Positions 1 to 7,701 of a stretch of 64,000 nt of DNA are shown piece after piece. The DNA comes from Rhodoferax sp. PAMC 29310 (GTDB lineage Bacteria; Pseudomonadota; Gammaproteobacteria; Burkholderiales; Burkholderiaceae_C), in contig NZ_CP072852.1 of assembly GCF_017948265.1 (NCBI RefSeq), positions 1,798,001 through 1,862,000 of the forward strand. Reading direction: 5' to 3'. The position numbers were made by a program, and so were the translations under genes. The first letter of the stretch is position 1. Every line of letters begins with the position of its first letter. Below the pieces are notes generated by a model, which ran no database searches, had not been told where the DNA came from, and worked only from the letters and a program-made list of their open reading frames with translations.

Positions 1-2553
1 CACGGTGGCGATATGAAGCTCAAGCTCACCGTGATGGAAGGCGAGAACGCCAGCACGGAAACAGCCAAGGTCGGCTACCCCTACTTTGGCGGCATCGTGA
101 GCGAGCATTTCCCCAACAACGCCACGGGCGACGCCAGCAATGACGTTTTGGTGCGCACTGTTCCCGTTCAGCGAATCAAGCTGGGCAAAGAAGGTGATCA
201 GCGCGATGCACTGGTGGCCACCGTGTTTGATTTGCAAGTTGCCAACTACGGCGTCGCGCGGGGTCTGCCCGGCGAAATGGCCGCCAAAGACTTCAACGAA
301 GATACACCGTACACCCCCGCCTGGCAGGAGCGCATCACCGGCACACCGCGTGAGCAGTTGATTACCGTGGCCCGCCAGTTTGCCGACAACGCCGACAAGA
401 CCCATGGCAAGTCCATGGTCATCATTGGCGCGGCCATGAACCACTGGTACCACAGTGACATGAACTACCGCGGCGTCATCAACATGTTGATGATGTGCGG
501 TTGTATTGGTCAAAGCGGTGGCGGCTGGGCGCACTATGTGGGCCAGGAAAAGCTTCGCCCTCAAACCGGTTGGCTGCCTTTGGCCTTTGGTCTGGACTGG
601 GTGCGCCCCCCCCGTCAGATGAACTCCACCAGCTTCTTCTACGCACACACCGACCAGTGGCGCTATGAAAAACTGGGCATGGAAGAGGTGCTCTCACCCT
701 TGGCCGACAAAAAACTGTACGGCGGCACCATGATTGACTACAACGTGCGCGCCGAGCGCATGGGCTGGTTGCCATCAGCTCCCCAATTGAAGACCAATCC
801 GCTGCAGGTGATTCGCGATGCCGCGGCCGCCAACATGGACCCCAAGGACTACACCGTCAAGAGCCTGAAAGACGGCTCCCTCACGATGAGCTGCGAGGAC
901 CCCGACCACCCTGACAACTGGCCTCGCAACATGTTTGTCTGGCGCTCCAAAATTCTGGGCTCCAGCGGCAAGGGCCATGAGTACTTCCTCAAGCACCTGC
1001 TGGGCACCAGCCATGGCGTTCAGGGCAAGGATTTGGGCAAAGACCAAGCGAAACCCACTCAAGTGGTGTGGCACGACAAGGCGCCTGAGGGCAAGCTGGA
1101 CCTGGTGGTCACACTGGACTTCCGCATGAGCACCACCTGCCTGTACTCAGACATCGTGTTGCCCACTGCCACCTGGTATGAAAAAAACGACCTAAACACC
1201 AGTGACATGCACCCCTTCATTCACCCGCTGTCTACCGCGGTCGATCCCGCATGGCAGTCGCGCAGTGACTGGGAGATCTACAAAGGTTTCGCCAAGAAAT
1301 TCAGCGAAGTGTGCGTGGGCCACCTCGGTGTGGAAAAAGAGATGGTATTGTCACCGCTGATGCACGACACCCCTGCGGAGCTGGCACAGCCCTTTGGTGT
1401 GCAGGATTGGAAACGTGGCGAGATTGACCTGATCCCCGGAAAAACCGCACCCAACATGGTGGTGGTGGAACGTGATTACCCCAACACCTACAAGCGCTTC
1501 ACGGCACTTGGCCCCTTGTTGAACAAGGTGGGCAACGGTGGCAAGGGCATCAACTGGAACACCCAGATCGAAGTCAAGCAACTCGGCGAACTCAATGGTT
1601 TGGTGAAAGACGAAGGCGTGTCTTGCGGCATGCCCAGCATCGACACCGACATTGATGCCTGCGAAGTGATTCTGCAGCTTGCCCCCGAGACCAACGGTCA
1701 TGTGGCGGTCAAGGCGTGGGAAGCACTGGGCAAACGAACCGGTCTGGACCATACCCACTTGGCCATTCACCGCGAAGACGAAAAAATTCGTTTCCGTGAT
1801 ATTCAGGCGCAGCCTCGCAAGATCATCAGCTCGCCGACCTGGAGCGGAATTGAGTCCGAGACCGTGTCCTACAACGCCGGCTACACCAACGTGCATGAAA
1901 TGATCCCATGGCGCACCCTTACCGGCCGCCAGCAGTTCTACATGGACCAACCCTGGATGACCGCGTTTGGTGAAGGCTTTACCAGCTACCGTCCGCCCGT
2001 TGACCTGAAGACCACCGCTGGCATTCAGGGCATCAAGCCCAATGGCAACAAGGAAATCGCGCTCAACTTCATCACGCCGCACCAAAAGTGAGGCATTCAC
2101 TCCACCTACAGCGACAACCTGCACATGCTCACGCTGGGTCGCGGCGGGCCCATCATCTGGCTAAGTGAAGATGACGCGAAATCCGCCGGCATTGTGGACA
2201 ACGACTGGGTGGAACTGTTCAACCTGAACGGTGCCATTGCAGCCCGTGCCGTGGTCAGCCAGCGTATCAACAATGGCATGACGCTGATGTACCACGCCCA
2301 GGAGAAGACCATCAACACGCCCGGGTCTGAAATCACAGGAATCCGCGGTGGCATTCACAACTCGATGACCCGCATTGTGCTGAAACCTACTCACATGATT
2401 GGCGGCTACGCCCAGTTCAGCTACGGCTTTAACTACTACGGAACCATTGGCACCAACCGCGATGAGTTCGTGGTGGTTCGCAAGATGAACAAGGTGGATT
2501 GGCTGGAAGAAGAAGCCAACTCGAACCACAGCGCCACTGCGCCCCACGCGTAA
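1..2553 (+). pseudogene. narG: Respiratory nitrate reductase alpha subunit, 3' part, interrupted by an in-frame TGA
   Basis: This is the C-terminal part of the membrane-bound Mo-bisMGD nitrate reductase catalytic subunit; its 5' end lies before the window. The reading frame is open from base 1 to the TGA at 2089-2091 and then continues in the same frame to the TAA at 2551-2553. Around the stop, NarG proteins read HQKWGIHSTY; here the W codon TGG is TGA (HQK-stop-GIHSTY), so one G-to-A change explains it. The remaining 153 codons (GIHSTYSDNL ... KVDWLEEEAN) are fully NarG-like, so the lesion looks recent. NarG passes electrons from NarH to nitrate at the cytoplasmic face of the membrane. If the stop is real and not read through, the protein loses about 150 C-terminal residues and is probably inactive. 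A sequencing error cannot be excluded. Identity of the family is certain; functional status is not. Confidence 0.93.
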
Positions 2554-2587: not shown

Positions 2588-4087
2588 ATGGTCCTGAATC
2601 TGGACAAATGCATCGGTTGCCACACCTGCTCCGTGACCTGCAAGAACGTCTGGACGAGCCGACCCGGCATGGAATACGCCTGGTTCAATAATGTTGAAAC
2701 CAAACCCGGCATTGGCTACCCCAAAGAATGGGAAAACCAGGACAAGTGGAACGGCGGCTGGATTCGCAAGGCGAACGGCACCATCGAGCCCCGCCAGGGC
2801 GCCAAGTGGAAACTGCTCATGCGCATCTTCGCCAACCCGAACATGCCTGAGATCGACGACTACTACGAGCCGTTCACTTTTGACTATGACCATTTGCAGT
2901 CGGCACCGGAGATGAAGGCCACACCCACAGCCCGCGCCCGTAGCTTGATCACCGGCAAGCGCATGGAAAAGATTGAGTGGGGCCCCAACTGGGAGGAGAT
3001 TCTGGGTGGTGAGTTCTCCAAGCGCAGCAAGGACAAGAACTTCGACGATATCCAGAAGGACATCTACGGCCAGTTCGAAAACACCTTCATGATGTACTTG
3101 CCCCGCCTGTGCGAGCACTGCCTGAACCCGGCCTGCGTGGCGAGTTGCCCCTCTGGCTCGATCTACAAGCGTGAGGAAGACGGCATTGTTCTGATCGATC
3201 AGGACAAGTGCCGCGGCTGGCGCATGTGTGTGAGCGGCTGCCCCTACAAAAAGATTTACTACAACTGGAAATCTGGCAAGGCTGAGAAATGCATCTTCTG
3301 CTACCCCCGCATTGAGGCCGGTCAGCCGACGGTGTGCTCCGAGACCTGTGTGGGTCGAATTCGCTACCTCGGAGTTCTGTTGTATGACGCAGACCGCATC
3401 CAGGAAGCCGCCAGCGTGGAACATGACCGCGACCTGTACCAGGCCCAGCTTGATATTTTCCTCGACCCCAATGACCCCAAGGTCATCGAGCAGGCGCGCA
3501 TTGACGGCATTCCTGACAAGTGGATGGAAGCCGCTCGCAAGAGCCCGGTGTACAAAATGGCGGTGGAGTGGAAAGTCGCCCTGCCCCTGCACCCCGAGTA
3601 CCGCACCCTGCCCATGGTCTGGTATGTGCCACCCCTGTCGCCCATCAGCGCCGCGGCCAATGCCGGTCATATCGGCACCAACGGTGAAATTCCTGACGTG
3701 AAGCAACTTCGCATTCCTGTGAAGTACTTGGCCAACTTGTTGACCGCGGGTGACACCCAGCCGGTGGAACGTGCCCTGGAACGCATGCTGGCCATGCGCG
3801 CTTACCAACGTGAAAAGCACGTGGACGGCCGCATCAACACGGCGGCTCTGGATCAGGTCCAAATGACTCAGGCCGAGGTGGAAGAGATGTACCACGTGAT
3901 GGCCATTGCTAACTACGAAGACCGCTTTGTGATTCCAAGCACCCACCGCGAATACGCAGAAAACACCTTTGACGTGCGCGGTGGCTGTGGCTTCTCGTTC
4001 GGCAACGGTTGCTCCGATGGCGCCAGTGAGACCAGCCTGTTTGGCAGCTCCAAGCGTCGCACCATTCCAATCAAGGCGGGGGTATAA
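2588..4087 (+). CDS. narH: Respiratory nitrate reductase beta subunit, N-terminal codons frameshifted
   Basis: This is the Fe-S electron-transfer subunit of NarGHI. Cysteine clusters are intact: CIGCHTCSVTC near the start, CEHCLNPACVASC, CRGWRMCVSGC (the Trp marks the 3Fe-4S site) and CIFCYPRIEAG. The 500 residues match the family from end to end. The expected start is the ATG at 2565, 14 bases after a strong AAGGAG (2552-2557), and NarH proteins begin MKIRxQxGMVLNLDKC. Here MKIR is followed by CA instead of GCA (bases 2577-2578), so one G is missing and the frame from 2565 stops within a few codons. The intact frame can only start at the internal ATG 2588, the family's Met9, which has no convincing ribosome site. 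A short truncated NarH might still be made by internal initiation. A single-base sequencing error is the main alternative. Confidence 0.93.
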   Translation: MVLNLDKCIGCHTCSVTCKNVWTSRPGMEYAWFNNVETKPGIGYPKEWENQDKWNGGWIRKANGTIEPRQGAKWKLLMRIFANPNMPEIDDYYEPFTFDYDHLQSAPEMKATPTARARSLITGKRMEKIEWGPNWEEILGGEFSKRSKDKNFDDIQKDIYGQFENTFMMYLPRLCEHCLNPACVASCPSGSIYKREEDGIVLIDQDKCRGWRMCVSGCPYKKIYYNWKSGKAEKCIFCYPRIEAGQPTVCSETCVGRIRYLGVLLYDADRIQEAASVEHDRDLYQAQLDIFLDPNDPKVIEQARIDGIPDKWMEAARKSPVYKMAVEWKVALPLHPEYRTLPMVWYVPPLSPISAAANAGHIGTNGEIPDVKQLRIPVKYLANLLTAGDTQPVERALERMLAMRAYQREKHVDGRINTAALDQVQMTQAEVEEMYHVMAIANYEDRFVIPSTHREYAENTFDVRGGCGFSFGNGCSDGASETSLFGSSKRRTIPIKAGV

Positions 4088-4090
4088 ATC

Positions 4091-4798
4091 ATGGCACTGC
4101 CCAATGCATCCATCAGTTTGCGGGTTCTAGCGCGCTTGCTCGCCTACCCAGACGCTGAACTGCGAGCCCAACTGTCCGACATGCGTGCTGCGCTTCACAC
4201 CGACAAGGTTTTGAAGTCCGGCCGCCTGACCGAACTGGACGCGCTCATCAACACGCTGCAACATGGCGACTCGCTGGACAACGAGGCGAAGTTTGTGGAA
4301 ATTTTCGACCGCGGTCGCTCCACTTCTTTGCACTTGTTTGAGCATGTGCACGGCGACTCGCGCGAGCGTGGTCCCGCCATGATTGACCTGGCACAGACCT
4401 ACAAAAAGGCTGGCTTGTTCCTGGCCGAAGGCGAAATGCCGGACTACCTGCCGGTGGTGCTGGAGTTTGTCTCCACTCAGCCCCCCAAGGAGGCGCGGGC
4501 GTTCCTGGGTGAGATGGCCCACATCTTCAATGCCATCTTCAGCGCCTTGCAACAGCGAGAAAGCCGCTATGCCAGTGTTTTGGGTGCGCTGCTGGAGATC
4601 GCGGGTGAAACCGCCCACCCCGTCAAGGTGACCCCTGACGAACCTTTGGACAAGGCGTGGGAAGAGCCGGTTGTATTTGACGGTTGCTCGACCAAAGGGC
4701 AAGCCAAACCCGGCGAGGCTCAGCCCATTCACTTTGTCAAAAATGACGCGGCGCGCGCCAGCGCAAAAGCCGCCGCATACCCTGGAGCATCACAATGA
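4091..4798 (+). CDS. narJ: Nitrate reductase molybdenum cofactor assembly chaperone
   Basis: NarJ binds apo-NarG and keeps it in the cytoplasm until the molybdenum cofactor is inserted; it is not part of the final enzyme. The 235-residue length and the helical TorD/NarJ-type sequence (SLRVLARLLAYPDAELR at the start, SLHLFEHVHGDSRERGPAM near residue 80, DYLPVVLEFVS near 120) fit the family. The gene starts 3 bases after narH and ends in a 4-base ATGA overlap with narI, so it is translationally coupled in the nar operon. It is intact, in contrast to the two genes before it. Confidence 0.93.
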   Translation: MALPNASISLRVLARLLAYPDAELRAQLSDMRAALHTDKVLKSGRLTELDALINTLQHGDSLDNEAKFVEIFDRGRSTSLHLFEHVHGDSRERGPAMIDLAQTYKKAGLFLAEGEMPDYLPVVLEFVSTQPPKEARAFLGEMAHIFNAIFSALQQRESRYASVLGALLEIAGETAHPVKVTPDEPLDKAWEEPVVFDGCSTKGQAKPGEAQPIHFVKNDAARASAKAAAYPGASQ

Positions 4799-5529
4799 AC
4801 GCCTTTGACAACTTCCTGTTTGGCCTGTACCCCTACATCGCCCTCACCGTGTTTTTTCTGGGCAGCCTGATTCGCTTTGATCGGGACCAATACACTTGGA
4901 AAAGCGATTCTTCCCAACTGCTCAAAGCGGGACAGTTGCGTGTGGGACGCAACCTGTTTCACGTCGGTGTGCTGTTCCTGTTTTTCGGACACTTTTTCGG
5001 CATGTTGACGCCACACTTTCTGTACGAGCACTTCATTGACGCGGGCTCCAAGCAGTTAATGGCCATGATTTCGGGCGGCATTGCCGGCCTGCTCACCTTC
5101 ATTGGCATCACGATGCTCTTGCACCGTCGCCTGACGGAACCTCGCATTCGCGTCAATTCCAAAACCAGCGACATTGTTCTTTTGGTCCTGTTGTGGTTGC
5201 AGTTGGCTCTCGGACTGGCCACCATTCCGCTGTCAGCACAGCATCTGGACGGCAGCATGATGATGAGGCTGGCCGAGTGGGGTCAGCGCATCGTTACCTT
5301 CCGCGGTGGTGCCGTCGAACTCCTGATTGGCGCCGGCTGGATTTTCAAGATGCACATGTTCTTGGGCATGAGCATTTTCCTGATCTTCCCGTTCACCCGC
5401 CTCGTTCACGTCTGGAGCGGTTTCGGTGCCGTGGCGTACCTGGTTCGCCCTTACCAAGTGGTTCGCGCCCGCCGCTTGAACGTCCCAGCCGATCACAACC
5501 AACCCCGTCGTCCAGACGCGGGTGTTTAA
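4795..5529 (+). CDS. narI: Respiratory nitrate reductase gamma subunit (cytochrome b)
   Basis: NarI is the integral membrane di-heme cytochrome b that oxidises quinol and passes electrons to NarH. The protein has 244 residues and about five membrane helices. The four heme-ligand histidines fall exactly at the positions known for E. coli NarI: His56 and His66 (FHVGVLFLFFGHFFG), His187 (IFKMHMFLGM) and His205 (RLVHVWSG). It starts inside narJ (ATGA overlap) and its TAA overlaps the ribosome-binding site of the next gene. No lesion is visible. Confidence 0.96.
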   Translation: MNAFDNFLFGLYPYIALTVFFLGSLIRFDRDQYTWKSDSSQLLKAGQLRVGRNLFHVGVLFLFFGHFFGMLTPHFLYEHFIDAGSKQLMAMISGGIAGLLTFIGITMLLHRRLTEPRIRVNSKTSDIVLLVLLWLQLALGLATIPLSAQHLDGSMMMRLAEWGQRIVTFRGGAVELLIGAGWIFKMHMFLGMSIFLIFPFTRLVHVWSGFGAVAYLVRPYQVVRARRLNVPADHNQPRRPDAGV

Positions 5530-7054: not shown

Positions 7055-7701
7055 ATGAGCGAAGCGGCACTTGTAGCGCCCATCGGCACAACACTCTCTG
7101 CGGGCGCAGACGAAGAAGACGACCCGACCCAATTCGCACAGGAATTGATTCACGCCCGTCAGACGGTATTGCCCAAACGGTTGCTCGAGCCCGGGCCCAA
7201 CCCCGCGCAATTGCAACAAACTCTGCAGGCCGCCTCCGCCGCACCGGACTACGGAAAACTGCTGCCGTGGCGGTTCGTTCTGATTCCCGGGTCCGCCCGG
7301 CATCGACTGGCCAAAGTTTTTGAAGAGGCGTTGATCACCCGCGACCCGCAGGCCACACCAGACCAACTGGCGCAAGCCGCAGAGAAAGCTTACCGCGCGC
7401 CGGCCTTGATCCTGGCAATCTCGCAAACAGCGGCAGGTGACACTGGCGTCGACACTATGAGCGGATGGTTTCCATAGAATGCGCGCTCCAAAACATGTTG
7501 CTGCTGGCCACTGCCATGGGGTTTGGCTCCGCCTTGACCAGCGGAAAGGCACTGAGATCGCCTCAACTCAGCACGCTTTTTGCCCTGCAGGATGGCGAAG
7601 TAGCCGTGTGTTTTTTGAGTATCGGAACCGTGTCTAAAAGAAAATCAGCTCGAATCCGGCCCGAGATCAATGATTTTTTTTCGACACTTGCGAATGGGTG
7701 A
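7055..7701 (+). pseudogene. Nitroreductase family protein (YdjA-like), frameshifted
   Basis: Two overlapping frames together make one FMN-dependent nitroreductase-fold protein. The first (7055-7477) gives the N-terminal part, with AAPDYGKLLPWRF (family pattern APDHxxxxPWxF) and AYRAPALILAIS. The second (open through the ATG at 7465 to 7701) gives ALQNMLLLATAMGFGSAL and the C-terminal strand GEVAVCFLSIGT. In the family these are contiguous, with a segment like xxHYERMVSxECALQNM at the join. The bases at about 7448-7456 lack one nucleotide: reading GTC-GAn-CAC-TAT-GAG-CGG-ATG restores the frame. It is the third lesion in this 7.7-kb stretch. Function, if any, is unknown beyond flavin-dependent reduction of an unidentified substrate. 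The start ATG 7055 is 3 bases after the carbonic anhydrase stop. Confidence 0.82.

Follow-up and report, generated by a model that had tools for sequence, protein, structure and literature searches.

The nar cluster and the stop codon in narG

The window, a stretch of 64,000 nucleotides from the single-contig genome of Rhodoferax sp. PAMC 29310 (G000; 4,593,249 bases), starts inside narG, the one NarG gene of this genome. Positions 1-2088 (forward strand) hold a NarG frame that ends at a TGA at 2089-2091, between AAG (2086-2088) and GGC (2092-2094), and the following 153 codons stay open in the same frame as the NarG C-terminus to 2550, where the native TAA follows (2551-2553). The gene is intact further upstream, outside the window (L002 12735-16088, starting at G000:C1 1796735), with matches to the N-terminal domain PF14710 and to PF00384. 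Its 1,118 codons before the TGA include 36 Trp codons, all of them TGG. In a profile search TIGR01580 matched the 5' part with 1120.5 bits (profile 410-1095) and the 3' part (2092-2553) with 259 bits (profile 1097-1235), the two matches being collinear and leaving a single profile position for the TGA; the part beyond the stop aligns with E. coli NarG (PDB 1q16) starting at chain residue 1097. The TGA is present in the assembly, and NarG is accordingly not encoded by one uninterrupted frame. The sequence 3' of the stop encodes almost the whole molybdopterin-dinucleotide-binding domain PF01568 (profile 12-106 of 110), so that a product ending at the TGA would be expected to be without nearly all of it.

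To compare this codon with its counterparts, we read it in four sets of narG loci, which are partly non-independent because some places were fetched twice. All 29 family loci, all 29 genus loci and all 80 loci from named genomes carry TGG there; the named-genome set is biased, since it was partly picked by the peptide HQKWGIH, which contains this Trp. Three of five further loci also carry TGG, and the other two stop at a contig edge short of the codon. None of the relatives read shows TGA here, and as in a pseudogene the disabling change has no counterpart in the relatives, being confined to G000 in all four sets. Among 146 motif matches outside the listed narG copies, one with ACG was discarded as an unrelated protein of G000 itself. 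The NarG C-terminus is matched in 54 of 89 genus genomes, G000 included and G285 weakly; many are drafts, so absence from the others is not firm. Across the part in the window, NarG is 92% identical to a relative. By narG, the closest relative found is G229 (96.1% identity, 585 codons), in which narG, narH, narJ, narI, ppiC, can and the fetched part of narK2 each form one stop-free frame. An earlier note on this DNA had described a NarG-like frame on both sides of the stop, a TGA in place of a Trp codon that relatives write as TGG, and a well-preserved 3' part, all of which these comparisons bear out.

narG is not the only interrupted gene of the cluster. The narH frame starting at ATG 2565 is one base short in codon 4 compared with relatives and closes at a TGA at 2595-2597. 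The next in-frame ATG, at 2588, corresponds to residue 9 of the relatives' protein, and from there the remainder of narH (2588-4087) is open and matches TIGR01660 with 959.5 bits. Among the 148 narH starts compared, own copies and repeats included, the codon-4 region is also shortened at one other locus, L084, which belongs to a metagenome-assembled genome (MAG); its narH is shortened both at the 5' end and in the middle, reflecting either decay or MAG error. The same two explanations apply to L113 (Polaromonas sp. UBA5171 MAG), where narG and narK1 each lie in two frames. In G000 a frame change also interrupts narX, which lies upstream of the window; it falls in a stretch of nine C (L002 8123-8131; G000:C1 1792123-1792131). 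Open, by comparison, are narL, narK1, narK2, narJ (4091-4798), narI (4795-5529) and the PpiC-like and carbonic-anhydrase-like genes. Gene order and sequence are like those of the narXL-narKK-narGHJI operon of Comamonadaceae (TIGR01580, TIGR01660; E. coli NarGHI, PDB 1q16), from which G000 differs in having narG, narH and narX interrupted. Next to the cluster, downstream of the carbonic-anhydrase-like gene, lies a nitroreductase-like gene (7055-7701, forward strand), not a denitrification gene, with one frame change near 7441-7474: PF00881 is matched collinearly at 14-96 in the 5' frame and at 114-166 in another, and NF008088 likewise in two frames.

To gauge the age of the loss, we counted derived changes along the narG branches of G000 and G229. 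Over 585 codons, the G000 branch shows 10 nonsynonymous changes (stop included) and 20 synonymous ones (dN/dS 0.14), against 8 and 30 on the G229 branch (dN/dS 0.076; Fisher P = 0.28). At 724 near-invariant positions narG carries 11 changes, stop included, which places it at rank 4 of 120; narH carries none at 324 such positions. These figures suggest that most of the G000 branch evolved under constraint and that the loss looks recent. Of the very recent loss that had been proposed, "recent" is supported by the good preservation of the genes, but "very" is mildly opposed by the changes at near-invariant positions of narG, which may have drifted slightly more than narH.

nirK and the remaining denitrification genes

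Before its state was known, nirK was chosen as the next step of the pathway. About 2.1 Mb from the nar cluster, G000 contains one nirK over the family cut-off (3903847-3904680, minus strand), whose match leaves out profile positions 1-49. These are encoded immediately upstream in a different frame, where an in-frame TAA (3904719-3904721) is followed by a frame change within 3904693-3904718; the broken gene as a whole spans G000:C1:3903847-3904958 (L265). Against copper nitrite reductase, its N-terminal piece aligns as far as chain residue 82 of 7p2f (E = 3e-5), and its C-terminal piece covers the shorter mature chains from about residue 55 onward to the end (E = 8e-131). Only two of 89 genus genomes have a nirK over the cut-off; given this rarity, the gene was perhaps acquired by transfer before it broke.

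With narH and narX in the cluster and nirK far from it, further disabling changes are thus present in both operon and pathway, and the single transition that the earlier note took for the inactivating event is not the whole story. The other steps were searched by profile. Two nosZ profiles found no match in G000. An open frame of 772 codons matches PF00115 and is consistent with a quinol-type NO reductase (qNor). PF00384 has seven matches, NarG being one of them. Five of the six others were scanned with profiles, and none came near the NapA cut-off; one of the five is NasA-like by ranking, though below the cut-offs. The sixth, at 1646372, appears to lie in a nuo run. With five of the six others scanned, NarG seems to have served this lineage as its sole respiratory nitrate reductase. 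The same steps are described for Rhodoferax sediminis CHu59-6-5, which according to PMC7074706 has narGHJI, nirK and qnor but no nos, the genes being present and functional. G000, with narGHJI, nirK, a putative qNor and no nosZ found, is a different genome (4,593,249 against the 4,387,497 bases given there) in which narG, narH and nirK are broken.

Distribution of interrupted genes in the genome

To place these lesions in the context of the genome, we compared orthologues between 620 kb of G000 and 1.42 Mb of G121, a genome of the same genus. Orthologues of 167 G121 genes were present in the sample, and eight of them were flagged in G000, namely narX, narG, three adjacent genes, a GGDEF/EAL-like gene and the genes at 1901835 and 253582. 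The last two have stops near the gene start and were set aside by eye, leaving six accepted as broken. In the reverse scan 2 of 168 genes were flagged in G121, both near gene starts and likewise set aside, so that none was accepted. The narH break was spotted by eye and not by the scan, which similar 5'-end lesions elsewhere would also escape. At the sensitivity of the scan the other orthologues of the sample are open, including a nuo-like run at 1640-1657 kb.

Counting nine denitrification genes (narX, L, K1, K2, G, H, J, I and nirK), four are broken (narX, narG, narH and nirK) as compared with four of 159 other orthologues (Fisher P = 0.00025). The value shifts with how individual genes are counted: P is 0.0007 if both set-aside genes are counted as broken and 0.0077 if, in addition, narH is not counted as broken, 0.0034 if only narH is dropped from the broken genes and 0.001 if the three-gene place is also counted once. 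Restricting the count to nar genes gives P = 0.0023 if narH is taken as broken and P = 0.027 if it is not. The nine lesions of the sample fall at three places, against a mean of 6.9 in shuffles (P = 0.0015). All of these clustering tests are post hoc.

The four broken orthologues outside denitrification occupy two loci of the 620-kb sample. At G000:C1:143787-146287 (minus strand; L187), three adjacent genes that are intact in G121 contain four in-frame stops, all TAG, and are otherwise well kept; judged from their sequence, as are the other gene names in this paragraph, they encode an ABC ATPase-like, a permease-like and a small protein. At G000:C1:204355-206203 (L190), the GGDEF/EAL-like gene is spread over three frames, with changes near G5 and T5, and forms one frame in G121. 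Two more putative interruptions were seen, an in-frame TAA at G000:C1:158195 (L187) in a pyruvate-carboxylase-like gene and an in-frame TAG at G000:C1 1781168 (L041) in a PfpI-like gene; because of these, too, G000 shows some decay outside denitrification.

Two other scans were less informative. A scan for frame changes by codon usage was too insensitive, giving five candidates in G000 and two in G121, several of them seemingly antisense frames, while missing narX. A scan for in-frame stops gave four places in each genome but, at the threshold used, not narG. In the early orthologue scans, stops within leader sequences were flagged because the queries spanned stop to stop, and matches at leaders or gene starts were discarded by eye (G000 1651981, 253687 and 1903388-1903529; G121 1280543, 1660223 and 1749146).

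Origin and meaning of the interruptions

We consider it probable that the TGA in narG is a real nonsense mutation, and that it belongs to a group of disabling mutations that arose independently in the nitrate and nitrite respiration genes of one Rhodoferax lineage. Translation of NarG would then end ahead of the C-terminal cofactor-binding domain, no active NarGHI would be made and nitrite reduction by NirK would likewise be lost. The lesions would have arisen once selection on denitrification lapsed, and the loss would be recent because the rest of the broken genes is well kept. Against decay stand the post hoc nature of the tests, the homopolymer sites at some frame changes, the lesions beyond denitrification and the five open nar genes. 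The main rival holds that the TGA and the small indels are miscalls in a complete yet imperfect genome sequence, and that the cell itself has unbroken genes. G000 does have more interruptions than G121 (six accepted against none; eight flagged against two), and several of its frame changes are at or close to homopolymers, which are also prone to base-calling errors (C9 in narX, G5 and T5 in the GGDEF/EAL-like gene). Errors would, however, be expected to spread, whereas the lesions gather in denitrification genes, at two loci far apart, and at two other places, the remaining orthologues of the sample, the nuo-like run among them, are open, and narH is unchanged at all its near-invariant positions. 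This rival is unlikely, though it deserves more weight than any reading that keeps the enzyme alive by translation.

Such readings start from tRNA-Trp or another tRNA reading the TGA often enough for a working NarG. UGA is the leakiest stop codon, and some basal leakiness is possible; the TGA is also the sole in-frame stop in narG, dN/dS is low, and narJ and narI are open. In-frame stops within genes under purifying selection, possibly read through, are described in PMC7918605 and share with narG the stop and the low dN/dS, but the further lesions of G000 in operon and pathway argue for loss. Functional readthrough is very unlikely, as none of the relatives read has TGA at this codon and the pathway would stay blocked even if narG were read through, since narH starts out of frame and nirK is broken. 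RF2 is present, so there has been no loss of RF2 of the kind that accompanies UGA-to-Trp reassignment, and TGA closes 213 of the 411 open frames of at least 200 codons in the G000 sample, spurious frames included; a change of the code was rejected on these grounds. The one tRNA-Trp copy examined, beside nusG (L217 844-919), has the anticodon CCA, a fully paired 5-bp anticodon stem and G24, and shows neither a UCA anticodon nor a 4-bp anticodon stem nor G24A, the Hirsh suppressor form. It thus also differs from the tRNA-Trp with a 4-bp anticodon stem that was shown to read UGA in PMC13092985. With the examined tRNA-Trp ordinary, RF2 in place and narH still out of frame, the readthrough alternative of the earlier note is left unsupported.

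Selenocysteine was rejected as well. TGA is its codon and molybdenum enzymes of NarG's superfamily can be selenoproteins, but selA has no match in G000, the same search being positive in four of 14 control genomes, including E. coli, and the relatives carry Trp and not Cys at this codon; we regard insertion here as having a negligible chance. A slim chance, smaller than that of functional readthrough, is left for a lineage that retains a leaky, near-silent nitrate reductase through low UGA readthrough in narG combined with a restart of narH at ATG 2588. With the same slim chance, this state would yield trace NarGHI and be reversible instead of dead; it is compatible with the data because dN/dS is low and narJ, narI, narK1 and narK2 are open.

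Most likely, then, the stop is a recent pseudogene lesion in a pathway under loss and not a novel reading of the genetic code. Interrupted coding sequences and pseudogenes of bacteria, as described in PMC2277376, likewise show stops and frameshifts in well-kept genes; the breaks of G000 differ in gathering in one pathway at two loci. A search of the open-licence PMC literature, by titles and the starts of abstracts, found no report of these broken genes.

If the breaks are real, a lone in-frame TGA is a reason to check the neighbouring genes before recoding is inferred, and G000 offers an early snapshot of denitrification loss, in which fresh breaks affect the sensor narX, the catalytic narG, the electron-transfer narH and nirK, the next enzyme, but have left the genes for the transporters, the chaperone and the membrane subunit open. 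A survey based on counts of narG or nirK fragments would label this organism a denitrifier, which it probably is not.
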